61,650 nucleotides of DNA from IMG/VR virus record IMGVR_UViG_3300047476_000161, positions 1-61,650 of that record. The stretch is one strand, 5' to 3'. The notes beneath the pieces are model-generated. The model was not told where the DNA came from and did no database searches. It saw nothing but the letters and a program-made list of their open reading frames with translations. This document shows, piece after piece, positions 18,025 through 26,922 of this stretch (the first letter of the stretch is position 1; every line of letters begins with the position of its first letter). The position numbers were made by a program, and so were the translations under genes. This stretch comes from a virus.

Positions 18025-19497
18025 TTATTTTCTAAGCATATTCCTGAGCTGTTCTGTCCTTGCAATAGTACTGCTAATTGCACTATTTGACGGGACTGTT
18101 TCTTTCTTCATAATAGGCGTAAAATCAAAGCCTTCCTTAGGTTGCGGGTATGCAGCCGGCGGCGCAGGCTTATTAACTGCTTGCGGCGCAGGGGCAGTTT
18201 GCGCCTGTCGTTTTAAGTTATTAAACATTACATCCGCTGTAGTAGGACCAGTTGCTTGATCTTCTTCAGTTAAATCAGTGATTTTTAATGTTTTAACATC
18301 CCAGCTTAGTTCTACTTTTTGTCCTAGACCGCTAGAGTTACGTGTTTTCATAAACTGAATCTGTACCCTACCGCGCTCACGCATAGTCATACTACTGAAA
18401 ATACCGATTACGTTGTCAGCAGTCTGAATCTTACTTAAACCGCCTGCAATGTGACTGTGGTCAAATTCTACAGATTCTACAGCGCCGCGGTTCAGCTGCG
18501 ATGCCGTTACTAAGAAGCAGTTTTGTTCAATAGCAAAGTTGCGTAGTTCTTCTGATACATACTTGTCTTTAATAAAGAGGTTTTCTGCACTTACTTTAAC
18601 ACTGACAGGGTGCATCAAGTCTAAGTAGTCAATAATAACTGCATCAAACTTAACACCATACTGAATGTGGTATTCCTTAACCCAGGCCTTAATATCATTA
18701 ATGGTAACGCCGTTAGGCACTTGCACAATCTGTAGCTTGCCTGCCTTTTTACCTACCATACGAACTTTAAGGTCTACTTCATCTAGGTTCTGATAGATTT
18801 CCTTAGCACCAAAACCAGTAACCATACTGTCTATACGTTTAGAGCATAGTCCTTCGGAAAGTTCAAGGCTAAAGTAAACAACATTCATTCCTGCTTGCGA
18901 CCAATTAACAGCAATGTTTTGCAAGAATACAGACTTACCACCACCTGACGGTGCAGCAAAGATGTTAAGAGTACCTCGATCAAAACCGCCGTACAACTTA
19001 TCGTCAATAGTTTTCCAACCTGTGCTAGTAGCTGCGTTCCTGTTACGCAATTCATTTAATCGCCCTGCAGGGTCTGCGTAATAGTCAATACCAAATGTCT
19101 TGGCTAAACCGACTTCAGTAGCTTCCTTAATTAGCTTCTCCACGCTACCATAGTCTTGCTTTTCTAGTAGGTCAGCACTCTTTAAGATAGCCTTTTCTAG
19201 GGCTTTGTACTTACAGAATTTTTCAAACTCGTCAATAAACCATTTGCCGTGTTCTTCTGCAACTTTACCTAAGTCTCGTAGCTCTAGTCCCACTGCTGCT
19301 TTAATTTGTTCAACTGTGGGTACTGCACTATATTGATTGCTGTAGTCAACAAGGAACTTGACTGCCGGCTCTAGCGACCTATCGAAATAGTTTGTACTGA
19401 TAATGTTGTTAGTGCGGCCTAGCAATTCTCTGTCGCTAACAAGGAACTCCAGGAATAACTTTTGAAGGTCGACTGTGTAATCTTTAATTTCACTCAT
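18025..19497 (-). CDS. 41: replicative DNA helicase (gp41-like)
   Basis: A 490-residue DnaB/RecA-fold helicase that unwinds the fork and loads the primase. Walker A APSGGGKS is at about 181-188, Walker B VIIDYLDL at about 286-293, and the sensor region VTASQLNRGAV follows. An N-terminal all-helical domain (1-130) matches DnaB-type helicases. The C-terminal 60 residues are Pro/Ala/Gln-rich. It overlaps the primase gene by eight bases, consistent with a gp41/gp61 primosome. Confidence 0.93.
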   Translation of the reverse strand: MSEIKDYTVDLQKLFLEFLVSDRELLGRTNNIISTNYFDRSLEPAVKFLVDYSNQYSAVPTVEQIKAAVGLELRDLGKVAEEHGKWFIDEFEKFCKYKALEKAILKSADLLEKQDYGSVEKLIKEATEVGLAKTFGIDYYADPAGRLNELRNRNAATSTGWKTIDDKLYGGFDRGTLNIFAAPSGGGKSVFLQNIAVNWSQAGMNVVYFSLELSEGLCSKRIDSMVTGFGAKEIYQNLDEVDLKVRMVGKKAGKLQIVQVPNGVTINDIKAWVKEYHIQYGVKFDAVIIDYLDLMHPVSVKVSAENLFIKDKYVSEELRNFAIEQNCFLVTASQLNRGAVESVEFDHSHIAGGLSKIQTADNVIGIFSSMTMRERGRVQIQFMKTRNSSGLGQKVELSWDVKTLKITDLTEEDQATGPTTADVMFNNLKRQAQTAPAPQAVNKPAPPAAYPQPKEGFDFTPIMKKETVPSNSAISSTIARTEQLRNMLRK

Positions 19498-20497
19498 AAT
19501 AATGTTTGCTTGTTATACTCAACTTAATCTTGTTCGATTCTTTGTGTTCGATAATGTTCTTTAATACGAACAACTGCCCGTATACTTCTACTGCCTTAGC
19601 AGTGTCTTTAATCGACTTGTCCCATACAGGATGACTTACGCTCCATCCATAACCAATGGCTGCTTCTTCTAAATCTCTGCCTGCTCGATCCCTGTCTGGA
19701 ATTACTATTACTTCCTTGTGTAGTGCATTTATTACATCTGCTTGATTTTGAGATACACGGTTAGTACCTACACTAATTCCACTAATAGACAAAGCATCGT
19801 ACTCGCCTTCTGTAACTATAACATATTTTCTATCTGCTGTCTGTGCGTCTAGTCCATATATGTAATCACTATCGTGCTTCTTAACAATCTTGCGTGTTTT
19901 CTTGTCAGGCACGTCGCCTGCATATCTGGCGTGCCAACCTTTAATTTCTCCCTTGTATGTTAAAGGAAGTATAGCTCTGTTATATAGCTCAAAGTCCTCA
20001 GAATCTGACCACATCCAATCTGCCAACTCCAGTAGGCTTCTACTGTGCAAATATTGTGCTACATTTAGTGCACGTGGATCAGTTAGGCATTCGACTAGCG
20101 GCCTAGTGTTAGCCGGTAAGCTAGTATACTTCCAATTAGGTACATACGTTTCACGCTTAACTGGAACAGCCGATAACAAGGTGTGCTCTTCATTTTCTTT
20201 AAGAACTGCAATTATTAATCGTTGTAGCTCTGCTTCGGGCATACCAATACCTTGCAGTAACTTTCTAAATCTAGAAGTTAGTGGTGTGCCTAATCTCCAG
20301 CCTGTTTTGTATCCACAGTTAAAGCAACTGTATCTAATGCTAGTGTCGTCAGGAAACTGCATACCACCGCGCTTGCGGGTGTCTGCTCTAGGTTGACCAT
20401 TGTGGAGGCACATAGGACAATTAAAGCTGAACCAGCCGTTGTGTCCTAGTTTCTGTGTGGGCAAATAACTACGTACAATGTCTTGAATAAGACTCAT
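19490..20497 (-). CDS. 61: DNA primase (gp61-like)
   Basis: A 335-residue DnaG-type primase. The N-terminal zinc ribbon has C27/C30 (CPMC) and C58/C61 (CFNC). The TOPRIM core has the catalytic Glu in TEGEYDALS (about 219-227) and the DxD in PDRDRAG (about 257-263). It makes RNA primers for lagging-strand synthesis with gp41, encoded next with an eight-base overlap. Confidence 0.93.
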   Translation of the reverse strand: MSLIQDIVRSYLPTQKLGHNGWFSFNCPMCLHNGQPRADTRKRGGMQFPDDTSIRYSCFNCGYKTGWRLGTPLTSRFRKLLQGIGMPEAELQRLIIAVLKENEEHTLLSAVPVKRETYVPNWKYTSLPANTRPLVECLTDPRALNVAQYLHSRSLLELADWMWSDSEDFELYNRAILPLTYKGEIKGWHARYAGDVPDKKTRKIVKKHDSDYIYGLDAQTADRKYVIVTEGEYDALSISGISVGTNRVSQNQADVINALHKEVIVIPDRDRAGRDLEEAAIGYGWSVSHPVWDKSIKDTAKAVEVYGQLFVLKNIIEHKESNKIKLSITSKHYYE

Positions 20498-21341: not shown

Positions 21342-21710
21342 ATGACAACACCCCAAGAATTATTAGATAGATTCCCATTTTTGAGCCTATGCAGATGCGG
21401 AACTGAAGAATACATAGGAATTATACAGAATTATGACACTGGCGTAGTTGCTATGTACGTCTACAACCATCTGAATTGCATAGAAGATAAGGAACTGTTC
21501 TTGGAACTAGGTGATGAATGGTGGTGGGATAGTAATAGAATGTTGCCAATTAATCTAATCATAGGGGACAGGTTCAAGCCCCTAAGTTATTGTCTATCTA
21601 CTTTTAACGCAAAAAACTTTACTCTTGTAAGTGGTCCGAGTGTGAGCTTAAATAACATCATAACTAAACGCATCAAGCGTAGACAAATACAACTAGTAAG
21701 GAAAATATAA
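21342..21710 (+). CDS. conserved hypothetical protein (122 aa)
   Basis: First gene of a two-gene plus-strand island. A Cys pair (SLCRCGTEEYIGII) is followed by beta strands (VVAMYVYNHL), a Trp-rich patch (GDEWWWD) and a basic C-terminus (KRIKRRQIQLVRKI). The layout resembles small phage proteins of unknown function in aquatic T4-like genomes. It overlaps the Fe-S carrier gene by one base (TAATG), so the two may be coupled. No activity assigned. Confidence 0.7.
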   Translation: MTTPQELLDRFPFLSLCRCGTEEYIGIIQNYDTGVVAMYVYNHLNCIEDKELFLELGDEWWWDSNRMLPINLIIGDRFKPLSYCLSTFNAKNFTLVSGPSVSLNNIITKRIKRRQIQLVRKI

Positions 21711-22045
21711 TGGACTATCCCGTAACACTAACTTCTGCTGCTGTTGAAAAGATTAGAGATCTTATGGCAGAAGAGAACAGAGAGAATATCAAGATGCGTA
21801 TCTACGTCCAGGGCGGCGGATGTGCCGGATTCGAGTACGGTTTTGCCTGGGATACGGAGTTTGCAGAAGACGACTTCCAAATGAATTATGACGGAGTCGG
21901 TGTAGTGATTGATGCAATGTCAATGCAATACTTGCAAGGTATCAAAGTAGACTGGGTAGAAAGCCTAATGGGTGCTAGCTTCGAAATTGACAATCCGAAT
22001 GCTAACACCAGTTGCGGTTGCGGGTCTAGTTTTAACCCATTTTAA
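21710..22045 (+). CDS. A-type iron-sulfur cluster carrier (ErpA/IscA/HesB-like)
   Basis: A 111-residue HesB-fold protein with all three conserved cysteines: GGGCAGFEYGF (about residues 36-46) and SCGCGSSF near the C-terminus. Family members accept Fe-S clusters from a scaffold and hand them to apo-enzymes. The Shine-Dalgarno is AAGGAAAA. Coupled to the upstream 122-residue gene, and its 3' end overlaps the convergent gene at 22032. Possible clients include host or phage Fe-S proteins; no partner is visible in the window. Confidence 0.92.
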   Translation: MDYPVTLTSAAVEKIRDLMAEENRENIKMRIYVQGGGCAGFEYGFAWDTEFAEDDFQMNYDGVGVVIDAMSMQYLQGIKVDWVESLMGASFEIDNPNANTSCGCGSSFNPF

Positions 22046-22601
22046 TTAAATTCATCTGAACTATAATAGCCATAGCATACCCTAAGCTATGGCTTTTCTT
22101 AAAGTAATACGTTCCGTCAGCAGGTTTTTGCCAAATCTGCTTTTCAATTTCATCCCAAGACAAATGCTCTAAGTGCCGCTTGCCCGGACGAATCAATGCC
22201 AGCAACATAGCCAGTTCATTAATGTTACGTGGTGCTTTGCGTACAGTAATGTCAACGTGGTTACCAAGATGGAACAACTTAGACACAACTTCCGGATCTT
22301 TAAGCATTGACCAATCTGGCTCAATGCTGCATAACTTGTCTAGATGTTCCGGATCTTTAACTTGCTTGTATAGGCTAACGTTTAGAACGTCAATCTTAAA
22401 GTAGCCCAATTCTTCTGCTTCTTTAAAGTCGACGCTAGCTAGCTTAGTTAATGGATTAGATGGCATCTCGTGAAAGTAAACACCTGTATTGTGTTTGCGT
22501 TCTTTGCCATTGTCTCGTTGCATAGCAGGCACGTGGTTAATTAACCCTAATAGCTTGTCGCGGTCTGCAACGTCAATGTCAATGTCAGTTCTGATTTTCA
22601 T
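22032..22601 (-). CDS. miniature DnaE-like (DNA polymerase III alpha) palm protein (189 aa)
   Basis: Motifs follow bacterial DnaE in order. TDIDIDVADRDKL (residues 5-17) matches the PDxDxDF motif with the two catalytic Asp (E. coli D401/D403). GYFKIDVLNV (66-75) matches the (V)KFDFLGL motif with the third Asp (D555). KLFHLG (108-113) matches VFQLES, ALIRPGK (135-141) matches ALFRPGP, and KSHSLGYAMAIIVQ (169-182) matches KSHxxAYxxxxYQ. PHP, OB and tau-binding regions are absent (DnaE is about 1,100 residues). Whether it polymerises DNA is unknown. It is adjacent to small genes near gp62. Confidence 0.75.
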   Translation of the reverse strand: MKIRTDIDIDVADRDKLLGLINHVPAMQRDNGKERKHNTGVYFHEMPSNPLTKLASVDFKEAEELGYFKIDVLNVSLYKQVKDPEHLDKLCSIEPDWSMLKDPEVVSKLFHLGNHVDITVRKAPRNINELAMLLALIRPGKRHLEHLSWDEIEKQIWQKPADGTYYFKKSHSLGYAMAIIVQMNLIKMG

Positions 22602-22996
22602 AGTGAGAGCATAATTTCAAAAGCACGTTCTTTATCGGGAAACTCAATGTTAATTTTACCTGCTTCCTTTATACTAGGATAGTAAGTCAATCGTGTTTCC
22701 TTGCTTATATTATACAGTTTAAAATACTGTTTGTCACTGATTGTAATTTTAGCTTGCGCCAACCAGCCACGGGGACTTTCAGAATCTAAAGTTACTAGTC
22801 TAGGATTTCTGCGATTTAAGCTAATCATTGAATGGTAGCAGTCGCTTGCCCTGCTACCTGTTATTAGTATTGCAATGGTAGGATGAACAATAACTCCGCA
22901 ATTAGGATTGAACCAAACGTGTTTTGAGCTTAGATTGTTCCTGTATAAAAATTCCGAGTACGTGTCATACGAGTCAGTTATCAAATAATACATCAC
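22598..22996 (-). CDS. hypothetical protein (132 aa)
   Basis: Begins MMYYLITDSYDTY, with alternating beta strands and a Cys-containing segment (RASDCYHSM). The end (FPDKERAFEIMLSL) overlaps the start of the DnaE-like gene by four bases, so it is probably co-translated with it. No family recognised; a partner of the DnaE-like protein is possible on context alone. Confidence 0.65.
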   Translation of the reverse strand: MMYYLITDSYDTYSEFLYRNNLSSKHVWFNPNCGVIVHPTIAILITGSRASDCYHSMISLNRRNPRLVTLDSESPRGWLAQAKITISDKQYFKLYNISKETRLTYYPSIKEAGKINIEFPDKERAFEIMLSL

Positions 22997-24889: not shown

Positions 24890-25471
24890 TTAACTATTAT
24901 AATGTCTATTGTCGGATAATTCAAGTACCAAAGAGGCAAATAAATCGCTTCCTGTCTCTACGTTTGTTTTCCAGGATTCTGCACTGTCTCCGTTAGCGTG
25001 ATCCGATACGTGTTTGTATATACGCCAAGGTATGCCGTGTATGTTAGCAGCCCTTGCTATTGCATAACCTTCCATATCGACTAAATCGCAATGGTCAACA
25101 AGCCAGGGGTCTGTATCTGTAACAAAACTGTCTCCTGTGCCTAGTCTTAGTCCAGGTCTAGAGTTAGTCAGGTACAATGAAGTATCTTTACTAAACGGTG
25201 TAATGCCACGAGGTCCTAAGTCTGCAGGTAACATATCACGTTGACAAACTTTGGTTACTTCTTTAAATCCAGTTGCCCCGCTAATTGATCCAGCTGTTCC
25301 ATAGTTAACAATCATATCCGGGCTATAGAACCTAATAGCAGTTAATGTTGTTAATGCCGCATTAACTTTGCCTACCCCCGAATACACTATGTCAACACCT
25401 GCTTGCGTTAACAGTTGATTTGCTTGACCACTGAGCTCTTGCTCTAGTGCTACTACTACTAAAACTTTCAT
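24890..25471 (-). CDS. MTA/SAH nucleosidase-like protein
   Basis: A 193-residue nucleoside phosphorylase-fold protein of the Pfs/MtnN type. ALEQEL carries the first catalytic Glu, GVGKVNAA and NYGTAGS form the ribose pocket, VDMEGYAIA is the purine-binding Met-Glu motif, and SDHANGD carries the catalytic Asp. It would cleave S-adenosylhomocysteine and/or 5'-methylthioadenosine, by-products of methylation and polyamine synthesis. The ATG at 25471 overlaps the uvsW stop (ATGA). At 193 residues it is shorter than the bacterial enzyme (about 230), so the fold is trimmed. Confidence 0.82.
   Translation of the reverse strand: MKVLVVVALEQELSGQANQLLTQAGVDIVYSGVGKVNAALTTLTAIRFYSPDMIVNYGTAGSISGATGFKEVTKVCQRDMLPADLGPRGITPFSKDTSLYLTNSRPGLRLGTGDSFVTDTDPWLVDHCDLVDMEGYAIARAANIHGIPWRIYKHVSDHANGDSAESWKTNVETGSDLFASLVLELSDNRHYNS
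24896..24924 (-). promoter_or_regulatory. start-proximal promoter upstream of the 166-aa gene
   Basis: TTGAAT (24919-24924), 17-bp spacer and perfect TATAAT (24896-24901) inside the 3' end of the nucleosidase gene. The ATG at 24889 is six bases beyond the -10 box. Confidence 0.6.
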
Positions 25472-26922
25472 TTCCACTTTAACTTATTAATGGTGTAAGG
25501 ATACTTGGCATCTTGATAATACTTCTTCCTTACAGTAAGATGTTTCTTACTAAACTTTGCGTTGGATGTAATATCCCAAATTTGCACACTGTCTTTGTCT
25601 TGTGCTTTTCTTATACCGCGTCCAATACTTTGGATAACACGGACAAAACTTTTCCCGGGTTCCACAAGCACCAGATTAAAAATACGAGGGATGTTAATGC
25701 CCACAGCAGCAACACCATAGGTAGCCACAATAACCTTCCCATCAGCCGACGCAACGTCGTCATATTCATCCTTTCTGTCTTTTGATTTCATCGAACCACT
25801 GATAAACACACTACCGGGGATAGCTTCACAAATCATCTCGCCACTCTTAACCCTATCCACTAGAATAAGTGTATTACCTGACTCGGCAATACGGTTAAAC
25901 ATAGTAACAAGATAATTGATACGCTTCTGGTTAGTTGTTAGATAAGTTAGTTCTTCTTGATATGTCTTGTACTCTACATCATCTGCTAACTGCACAATGT
26001 TTACATCGCAGCTAGCTAGAACGCCTGCTTCTTGTAGTTCATTGGCGGTTAGCTTGTTAACTACATTGCCGAGAGTGGCAAAGATGCCGACTTGTTCATA
26101 TTCTTCTTTAGGGATAGTACCTGTCAGCCCCCAGCGAATAGGTACATTTGCAAATGGGCCGCTTAGTAGCTTTTGCAATACATCTGCCTTGGCTTGATGT
26201 ACTTCGTCTACAATGACTGCCACCATACCTTGTCCAAACTCTTGTAAGCTAAGGTCGCTATCACCTTCTTTAAAACGCTTTTCCATACTGTTTAGGCTTT
26301 GCCAAGTACAAATGGTATGTGTTTTGCCTACTTCCTTTTTGTCTCCGAAATACACACCTACGTCTAGGCCTAAGTTGTGGTAGTCTTCGTATGTTTGACG
26401 TACTAGGTCCTTGTTAGGGACAATAACAATACTGCGACCGTAGGGTTCTACTAGCCTGCTAAGTGTAGCAGTCATAATAGTCTTGCCTGCGCCCGTCGAT
26501 ATTTCCTGTACGCACTGCGGATTTGCAATAAATTCATTTACTGCGGTTACCTGATAATCACGCAATAAGATAGGCTCGCCTTCCTTGGGATGACCTTTTG
26601 GCCACACTGCACCCTCGTGGAAGGTTTCTGTTACTACAGGGAATTGAAAGTCGTGATGCTGACGTTCATCTTTAACTTCTACAGTGTAGCCTGCATCTAT
26701 AATGTCCGGTAGTAGCCTATCTAACAAGTTGAGATAAGTCCTGCCTCCTATAGTGCAGTAGCTAACGCACCCGTCCCATCGACCTAACTTATAAGCAGGG
26801 GTGTGATATGCGTGTGGTTGGAAAAATTTAAGTTTCTTTTCAAGTGTGCGTCTGACCCCAATGTCGAGATTTTTAAGGTGGACGTTCACTTCGTCTTCAA
26901 TATGTATCGTACAAGTGTTCAT
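25468..26922 (-). CDS. uvsW: UvsW-like ATP-dependent helicase
   Basis: A 484-residue SF2 helicase for fork reversal and recombination. Walker A STGAGKTIM is at about 142-150, DEVH at about 239-242, and motif III-like GLTGT follows. The C-terminal RecA domain has VRVIQSIGRGIRK (motif VI). A T4-like N-terminal region precedes the helicase core. It has no Shine-Dalgarno at its ATG (MNTCTIHIE) and a promoter -10 (26929-26934) only six bases upstream. It overlaps the nucleosidase gene by four bases. Confidence 0.93.
   Translation of the reverse strand: MNTCTIHIEDEVNVHLKNLDIGVRRTLEKKLKFFQPHAYHTPAYKLGRWDGCVSYCTIGGRTYLNLLDRLLPDIIDAGYTVEVKDERQHHDFQFPVVTETFHEGAVWPKGHPKEGEPILLRDYQVTAVNEFIANPQCVQEISTGAGKTIMTATLSRLVEPYGRSIVIVPNKDLVRQTYEDYHNLGLDVGVYFGDKKEVGKTHTICTWQSLNSMEKRFKEGDSDLSLQEFGQGMVAVIVDEVHQAKADVLQKLLSGPFANVPIRWGLTGTIPKEEYEQVGIFATLGNVVNKLTANELQEAGVLASCDVNIVQLADDVEYKTYQEELTYLTTNQKRINYLVTMFNRIAESGNTLILVDRVKSGEMICEAIPGSVFISGSMKSKDRKDEYDDVASADGKVIVATYGVAAVGINIPRIFNLVLVEPGKSFVRVIQSIGRGIRKAQDKDSVQIWDITSNAKFSKKHLTVRKKYYQDAKYPYTINKLKWK

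Follow-up and report, generated by a model that had tools for sequence, protein, structure and literature searches.

The C-terminal half of a split minimal DNA polymerase III alpha in an environmental jumbo-phage fragment, probably one part of a two-gene enzyme

A minimal DNA polymerase III alpha made as two proteins from distant genes has been described in the group 2.2 jumbo phages, which encode a family B polymerase as well (Iyer et al. 2021, Viruses 13:63, PMC7824862). The same authors proposed one-strand synthesis or repair as its role and suggested that the split minimal enzyme models a stage in the ancestry of Pol III. No experimental test of the split enzyme was found in the literature searched. 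Shortened Pol III alpha homologues have also been noted in RaK2-type phages, CBB_328 and Atu_ph07 gp316 being the examples (PMC5259590, PMC6102473); they belong to the same phage group as the gene described here, but the two-part enzyme was not recognised in those papers. In a marine survey, one cluster of jumbo phages had PF07733 as the sole distinguishing gene shared by at least half of its members (PMC9123017). Full-length Pol III alpha of the phage G/c-st type (PHROG 405), the main replicase of those phages (Iyer et al. 2021, PMC7824862), is also a phage-encoded C-family polymerase, but it is a single chain with a host-like architecture. The cellular enzymes DnaE and PolC (PDB 2hnh, 2hpi, 4iqj, 3f2b) are likewise single chains (900-1,200 aa), in which PHP and C-terminal domains, a thumb and full fingers are all present.

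The DNA analysed here, the window, is a 61.6-kb fragment of a phage genome. It encodes one half of such an enzyme, referred to below as the C-half; the other half is referred to as the N-half. The C-half resembles the split Pol III alpha of Iyer et al. in protein family and phage group; its long relatives also share with that enzyme the separate, distant genes for the NTP-binding and the Mg/template-binding parts and the accompanying family B polymerase. Unlike the published set, the window represents a further, environmental member whose N-half would lie outside the fragment. The split itself had already been published; the exact break point, the one-to-one co-occurrence of the halves and their gene neighbourhoods were measured in the present analysis.

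The 189-residue open reading frame reported in a preliminary description of this DNA was recovered at the same coordinates, on the minus strand (Table 1). That description had also stated that the flanking domains of DnaE are missing, and this holds: the protein is 189 aa long, whereas DnaE has about 1,160 aa, and it contains no other domains. The single-chain arrangement of PHP, thumb, full fingers and C-terminal domains is thus not seen in the C-half. The overlap of its start codon with the stop of the upstream gene suggests translational coupling of the two genes.

Table 1. Positions in the window of the C-half gene, its conserved motifs and neighbouring genes.
Feature	Position	Strand	Remarks
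C-terminal half of split minimal DNA polymerase III alpha (C family)	22032..22601	-	ATG at 22601, stop ends at 22032; palm part with catalytic Asp plus reduced fingers/O-helix, no thumb; PHROG, alignment, model and fold search
Codons 6-11, including DIDID	22569..22586	-	D6/D8 = E. coli D401/D403, D10 = D405; invariant, n=36; strand 7-11 modelled
KHNTG, codons 36-40	22482..22496	-	= DnaE K510-H511-A-G-G; H37 and G40 invariant
K-I-D, codons 69-71	22389..22397	-	K69/D71 = E. coli K553/D555; invariant; strand 70-74 modelled
LIRPG, codons 136-140	22182..22196	-	= DnaE ALFRPG (R639-P640); R138 and P139 invariant
K-S-H, codons 169-171	22089..22097	-	= DnaE K758-S759-H760; begins terminal O-helix; helix 169-188 modelled
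Upstream gene, 132 aa, no family match	22598..22996	-	stop overlaps start codon of the C-half by 4 bases
Protein of 230 aa	23225-23917	-	PHROG 11058, E=2.4e-64
Nucleoside phosphorylase superfamily protein	24890-25477	-	PF01048, E=1.6e-15
A-type iron-sulphur carrier (IscA/ErpA-like)	21710-22045	+	PF01521, E=1.8e-19; C-x-C near C-terminus
gp61-like DNA primase	19490..20497	-	downstream, same direction as C-half; PHROG 47, E=1.5e-27; synteny kept in relatives
gp41/DnaB-like replicative helicase	18025..19497	-	PHROG 19, E=1.1e-71; PF03796; synteny kept in relatives

Profile comparisons were carried out to place the C-half in a family. It matched PHROG 11778 ('DNA polymerase') over its full length (residues 2-187, E=1.9e-67) and PHROG 405, the full-length phage Pol III alpha, at E=2.4e-5. 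When 17 members of the family were compared with the same profiles, all matched PHROG 11778 and 16 matched PHROG 405. Identity of the C-half to its relatives is 41-55% over the full length. As a single sequence, the protein gave no match in Pfam, and its PDB search returned a glucosaminidase at E=0.08, which was set aside as a chance match; profiles are needed at this distance. With the 17-member profile, Pol III alpha chains were the only matches in the PDB, each of them weak (E 0.05-0.6), and hhalign of the C-half against cellular DnaE gave a probability of 29%. The AlphaFold model of the C-half has a mean pLDDT of 89. In a Foldseek search of the PDB with this model, ranks 1-11 were all C-family polymerases (best E=6.6e-4, probability up to 1.00), at modest TM-scores of 0.33-0.49. 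The model thus has the palm catalytic core fold of DnaE/PolC. The relationship to DnaE put forward in the preliminary description is borne out by the PHROG matches, by the weak but exclusive Pol III alpha matches of the PDB profile and by the fold search; the profile search on which that description had made the assignment depend did find a DnaE match.

The protein carries, in order, TDIDID, KHNTG, GYFKIDVLNV, LFHLG, ALIRPG and KSHSLGYA. Five of these motifs had been listed earlier as those of the DnaE core and all five are present; the KH..G motif had been overlooked. A regular expression for the ordered motifs matched both the C-half and DnaE of E. coli; when the C-half protein was shuffled 200,000 times, no shuffled sequence matched. 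The residue register given earlier needs correction in part. Equivalence of D71 with E. coli D555 stands, but D8/D10 do not correspond to D401/D403. As the E. coli motif reads P400-D401-F402-D403-V404-D405, the phage residues T5-D6-I7-D8-I9-D10 place D6/D8 on D401/D403 and D10 on D405. The Mg-binding aspartates D6, D8 and D71 therefore occur in the same order as E. coli D401, D403 and D555, to which they align, and both Asp segments are strands in the model. Conservation was assessed in 36 distinct C-half sequences with a median pairwise identity of 46%. D6, D8, D10, H37, K69, D71, R138 and P139 are invariant in this set, and H171 is kept in 35 of the 35 sequences that reach this position. Its E. 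coli counterpart, H760, is the proposed steric gate of Pol III alpha (PMC8485763). The C-half thus shares with DnaE/PolC the catalytic Asp triad, KH..G, RP and the KSH of the O-helix, as well as the palm core fold.

In the relatives the remainder of the palm is encoded by a separate gene. The N-half has about 170-180 aa, contains the triphosphate-binding GVGRGSS motif and ends in EFLR/K. PF07733 finds it above the cut-off in seven of nine related records. It falls in PHROG 11127, which like the C-half family is named 'DNA polymerase', and the two halves match complementary parts of the PHROG 405 profile. By hhalign the N-half corresponds to E. coli DnaE 323-393; it ends at E. coli residue 393, and the C-half begins at about 396. 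Profiles of the N-half matched Pol III alpha in the PDB at E=8e-4 and, with another profile, at 0.012. Its AlphaFold model has a pLDDT of 86, and ranks 1-8 of the fold search are all Pol III alpha. The preliminary description had taken the C-half for a stand-alone palm. This does not hold, as the palm is cut in two, with the triphosphate-binding half as a separate gene present once in every long relative.

The N-half reading frame stops 0-2 residues past EFLR/K in essentially all loci examined. A split intein was set aside, since the sampled N-half frames stop right at the end of the motif. Among 143 sequences, no locus had the halves fused or adjacent. The N-half also matches near the end of one, and the C-half near the middle of the other, of two further families, PHROG 13169 (463 aa) and PHROG 12219 (823 aa). 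These matches suggest another phage Pol III alpha with a similar split point and more domains retained.

Twelve related records are 259 kb or longer, and each of them has exactly one convincing copy of each half; three records have one half only, and all three are of 222 kb or less. On the linear record the two genes lie about 15 kb apart in RAS14, the shortest distance, and up to about 280 kb apart in the others. In RaK2 the N- and C-halves are gp373 and gp411, and in PA5oct they are gp196 and gp264. By tblastn, 90 phage records were found for each half, with near-identical genus tallies; for the C-half, the 90 annotated records are those in which the relative covers 80% or more of its length. 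One record with the C-half only, Klebsiella phage W12-3, is a 109-kb entry. Carriers of the C-half include RaK2, 121Q, PBECO4, GAP32, CBB, Atu_ph07, Phosso, PA5oct, SCTP-2 and Vibrio phage 2.275.O, and many IMG/VR contigs carry it as well. A motif and HMM search found no N-half in the 61.6-kb window or beside the C-half; a fragment of this length is too short to show the N-half of its own phage. In Stenotrophomonas phage RAS14 (OP752703) the halves, at 189861 and 204467, are the nearest to each other and have the lowest scores of the 12 long records. This pair is possibly a deep branch that could help to date the split.

The gene order after the C-half, both in the window and in relatives, is a convergent small gene, another gene, the gp61 primase and the gp41 helicase. 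In the three genomes checked (RaK2, Phosso and PA5oct), a gp31/GroES-like gene and the gp44 clamp loader come after the N-half. No family B polymerase was found in the 61.6-kb fragment, and one is present in 12 of the 12 records of at least 259 kb. A C-family palm had been called unexpected in a phage of a kind that normally uses a family B polymerase; the long relatives have both. A DnaQ-type proofreader was considered as a constant partner and set aside, as PF00929 was found in only five of the 12 long relatives and is not fixed at that sensitivity.

The convergent gene in the window encodes an IscA/ErpA-like protein and overlaps the end of the C-half gene. An iron-sulphur carrier as a conserved partner of the C-half was rejected, because in six relatives the convergent genes in this position have no PF01521 match; the IscA/ErpA-like gene therefore looks like a lineage-specific replacement. 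The nucleoside phosphorylase superfamily protein lies inside the replication gene cluster. The strongly conserved 230-aa protein has an N-terminal C2H2-type zinc-finger-like motif (CKYC...H).

Compared with DnaE/PolC, the phage halves have a split palm and lack thumb, PHP and C-terminal domains. The spacing from D10 to H37 (of KH..G) is about 26 residues in the C-half and about 105 in E. coli, from which the absence of the thumb follows. Similarly, RP and KSH are separated by about 29 residues against about 118, so that most of the fingers is absent, including the segment with E. coli R709/R710. At the position of E. coli R390 the N-half has a conserved Glu, replaced by Asp in two sequences. 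Loss of this arginine, together with that of the R709/R710 segment, calls for caution, as the two chains might form a nucleotidyltransferase of Pol III alpha fold that is not template-dependent, such as a terminal transferase, a primer-modifying enzyme or a primase helper. A grip on the template is doubtful with small fingers and no thumb, and the location of the C-half gene just upstream of primase and helicase would also suit such an activity. The K-S/A-H steric-gate motif of the O-helix is kept, however, and in Pol III alpha this motif is tied to dNTP selection; we consider a non-polymerase enzyme of this kind unlikely.

The absence of the parts of DnaE known to contact clamp, tau and epsilon, the missing thumb and the very small size of the proteins could also be read as signs of a catalytically dead accessory factor or decoy, one that imitates host Pol III alpha and takes up contacts in the replisome. 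Yet the catalytic and dNTP-contact residues are all invariant across relatives that are only about 46% identical, and every long relative retains a separate gene for the triphosphate-binding half; a decoy needs neither. Moreover, the domains for host contacts, which a decoy would keep, are those that were lost. Such a role is very improbable. The preliminary description had proposed a minimal polymerase, an accessory factor or a decoy; with a separate triphosphate-binding half, one per long relative, a one-chain minimal polymerase or a decoy is less likely than a two-chain enzyme. Seen as a single gene, a product of 189 aa might suggest a decaying fragment of a captured host dnaE, which encodes about 1,160 aa. 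Its length and boundaries are, however, constant in tens of divergent phages, its active site is invariant, its synteny is conserved and the N-half is always paired with it. This pattern already contradicts decay, which is hardly credible.

The two proteins are homologous to Pol III alpha, have complementary boundaries, co-occur and conserve the catalytic residues. We consider it probable, at roughly 0.8, that the C-half is part of a two-gene minimal C-family DNA polymerase that RaK2/PA5oct/Atu_ph07-type jumbo phages encode in addition to their family B replicase. Assembly of the halves into one enzyme and its polymerase activity are what we infer. In such an enzyme, the C-half would supply the aspartates that bind metal and the O-helix in contact with the incoming dNTP, and the N-half the part of the palm whose GRGS binds triphosphate. 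The chains would meet at the position of E. coli DnaE 393/396 and form one active site, without thumb, PHP, C-terminal domains and most of the fingers.

At the fork, a speculative role for the two-chain polymerase would be short synthesis, for instance to extend RNA primers until the B-family replicase takes over, or repair. Primer extension beside a family B replicase is suggested by where the two genes lie and by the precedent of B. subtilis DnaE/PolC (PMC5627055). Its most specific form is put forward tentatively and may well prove wrong: the two short chains would be an obligate, thumbless heterodimer, a C-family polymerase totalling about 360 residues, which extends primers and hands over to the family B replicase. 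Such a hand-off would be a phage analogue of B. subtilis DnaE/PolC or of eukaryotic pol alpha, built from the minimum catalytic core of Pol III alpha.

The findings raise the question of why phages with a family B replicase of their own keep both halves. If the two-gene reading is true, the minimum C-family polymerase would be defined by an active site cut between its triphosphate- and metal-binding parts, with thumb and most of the fingers gone.
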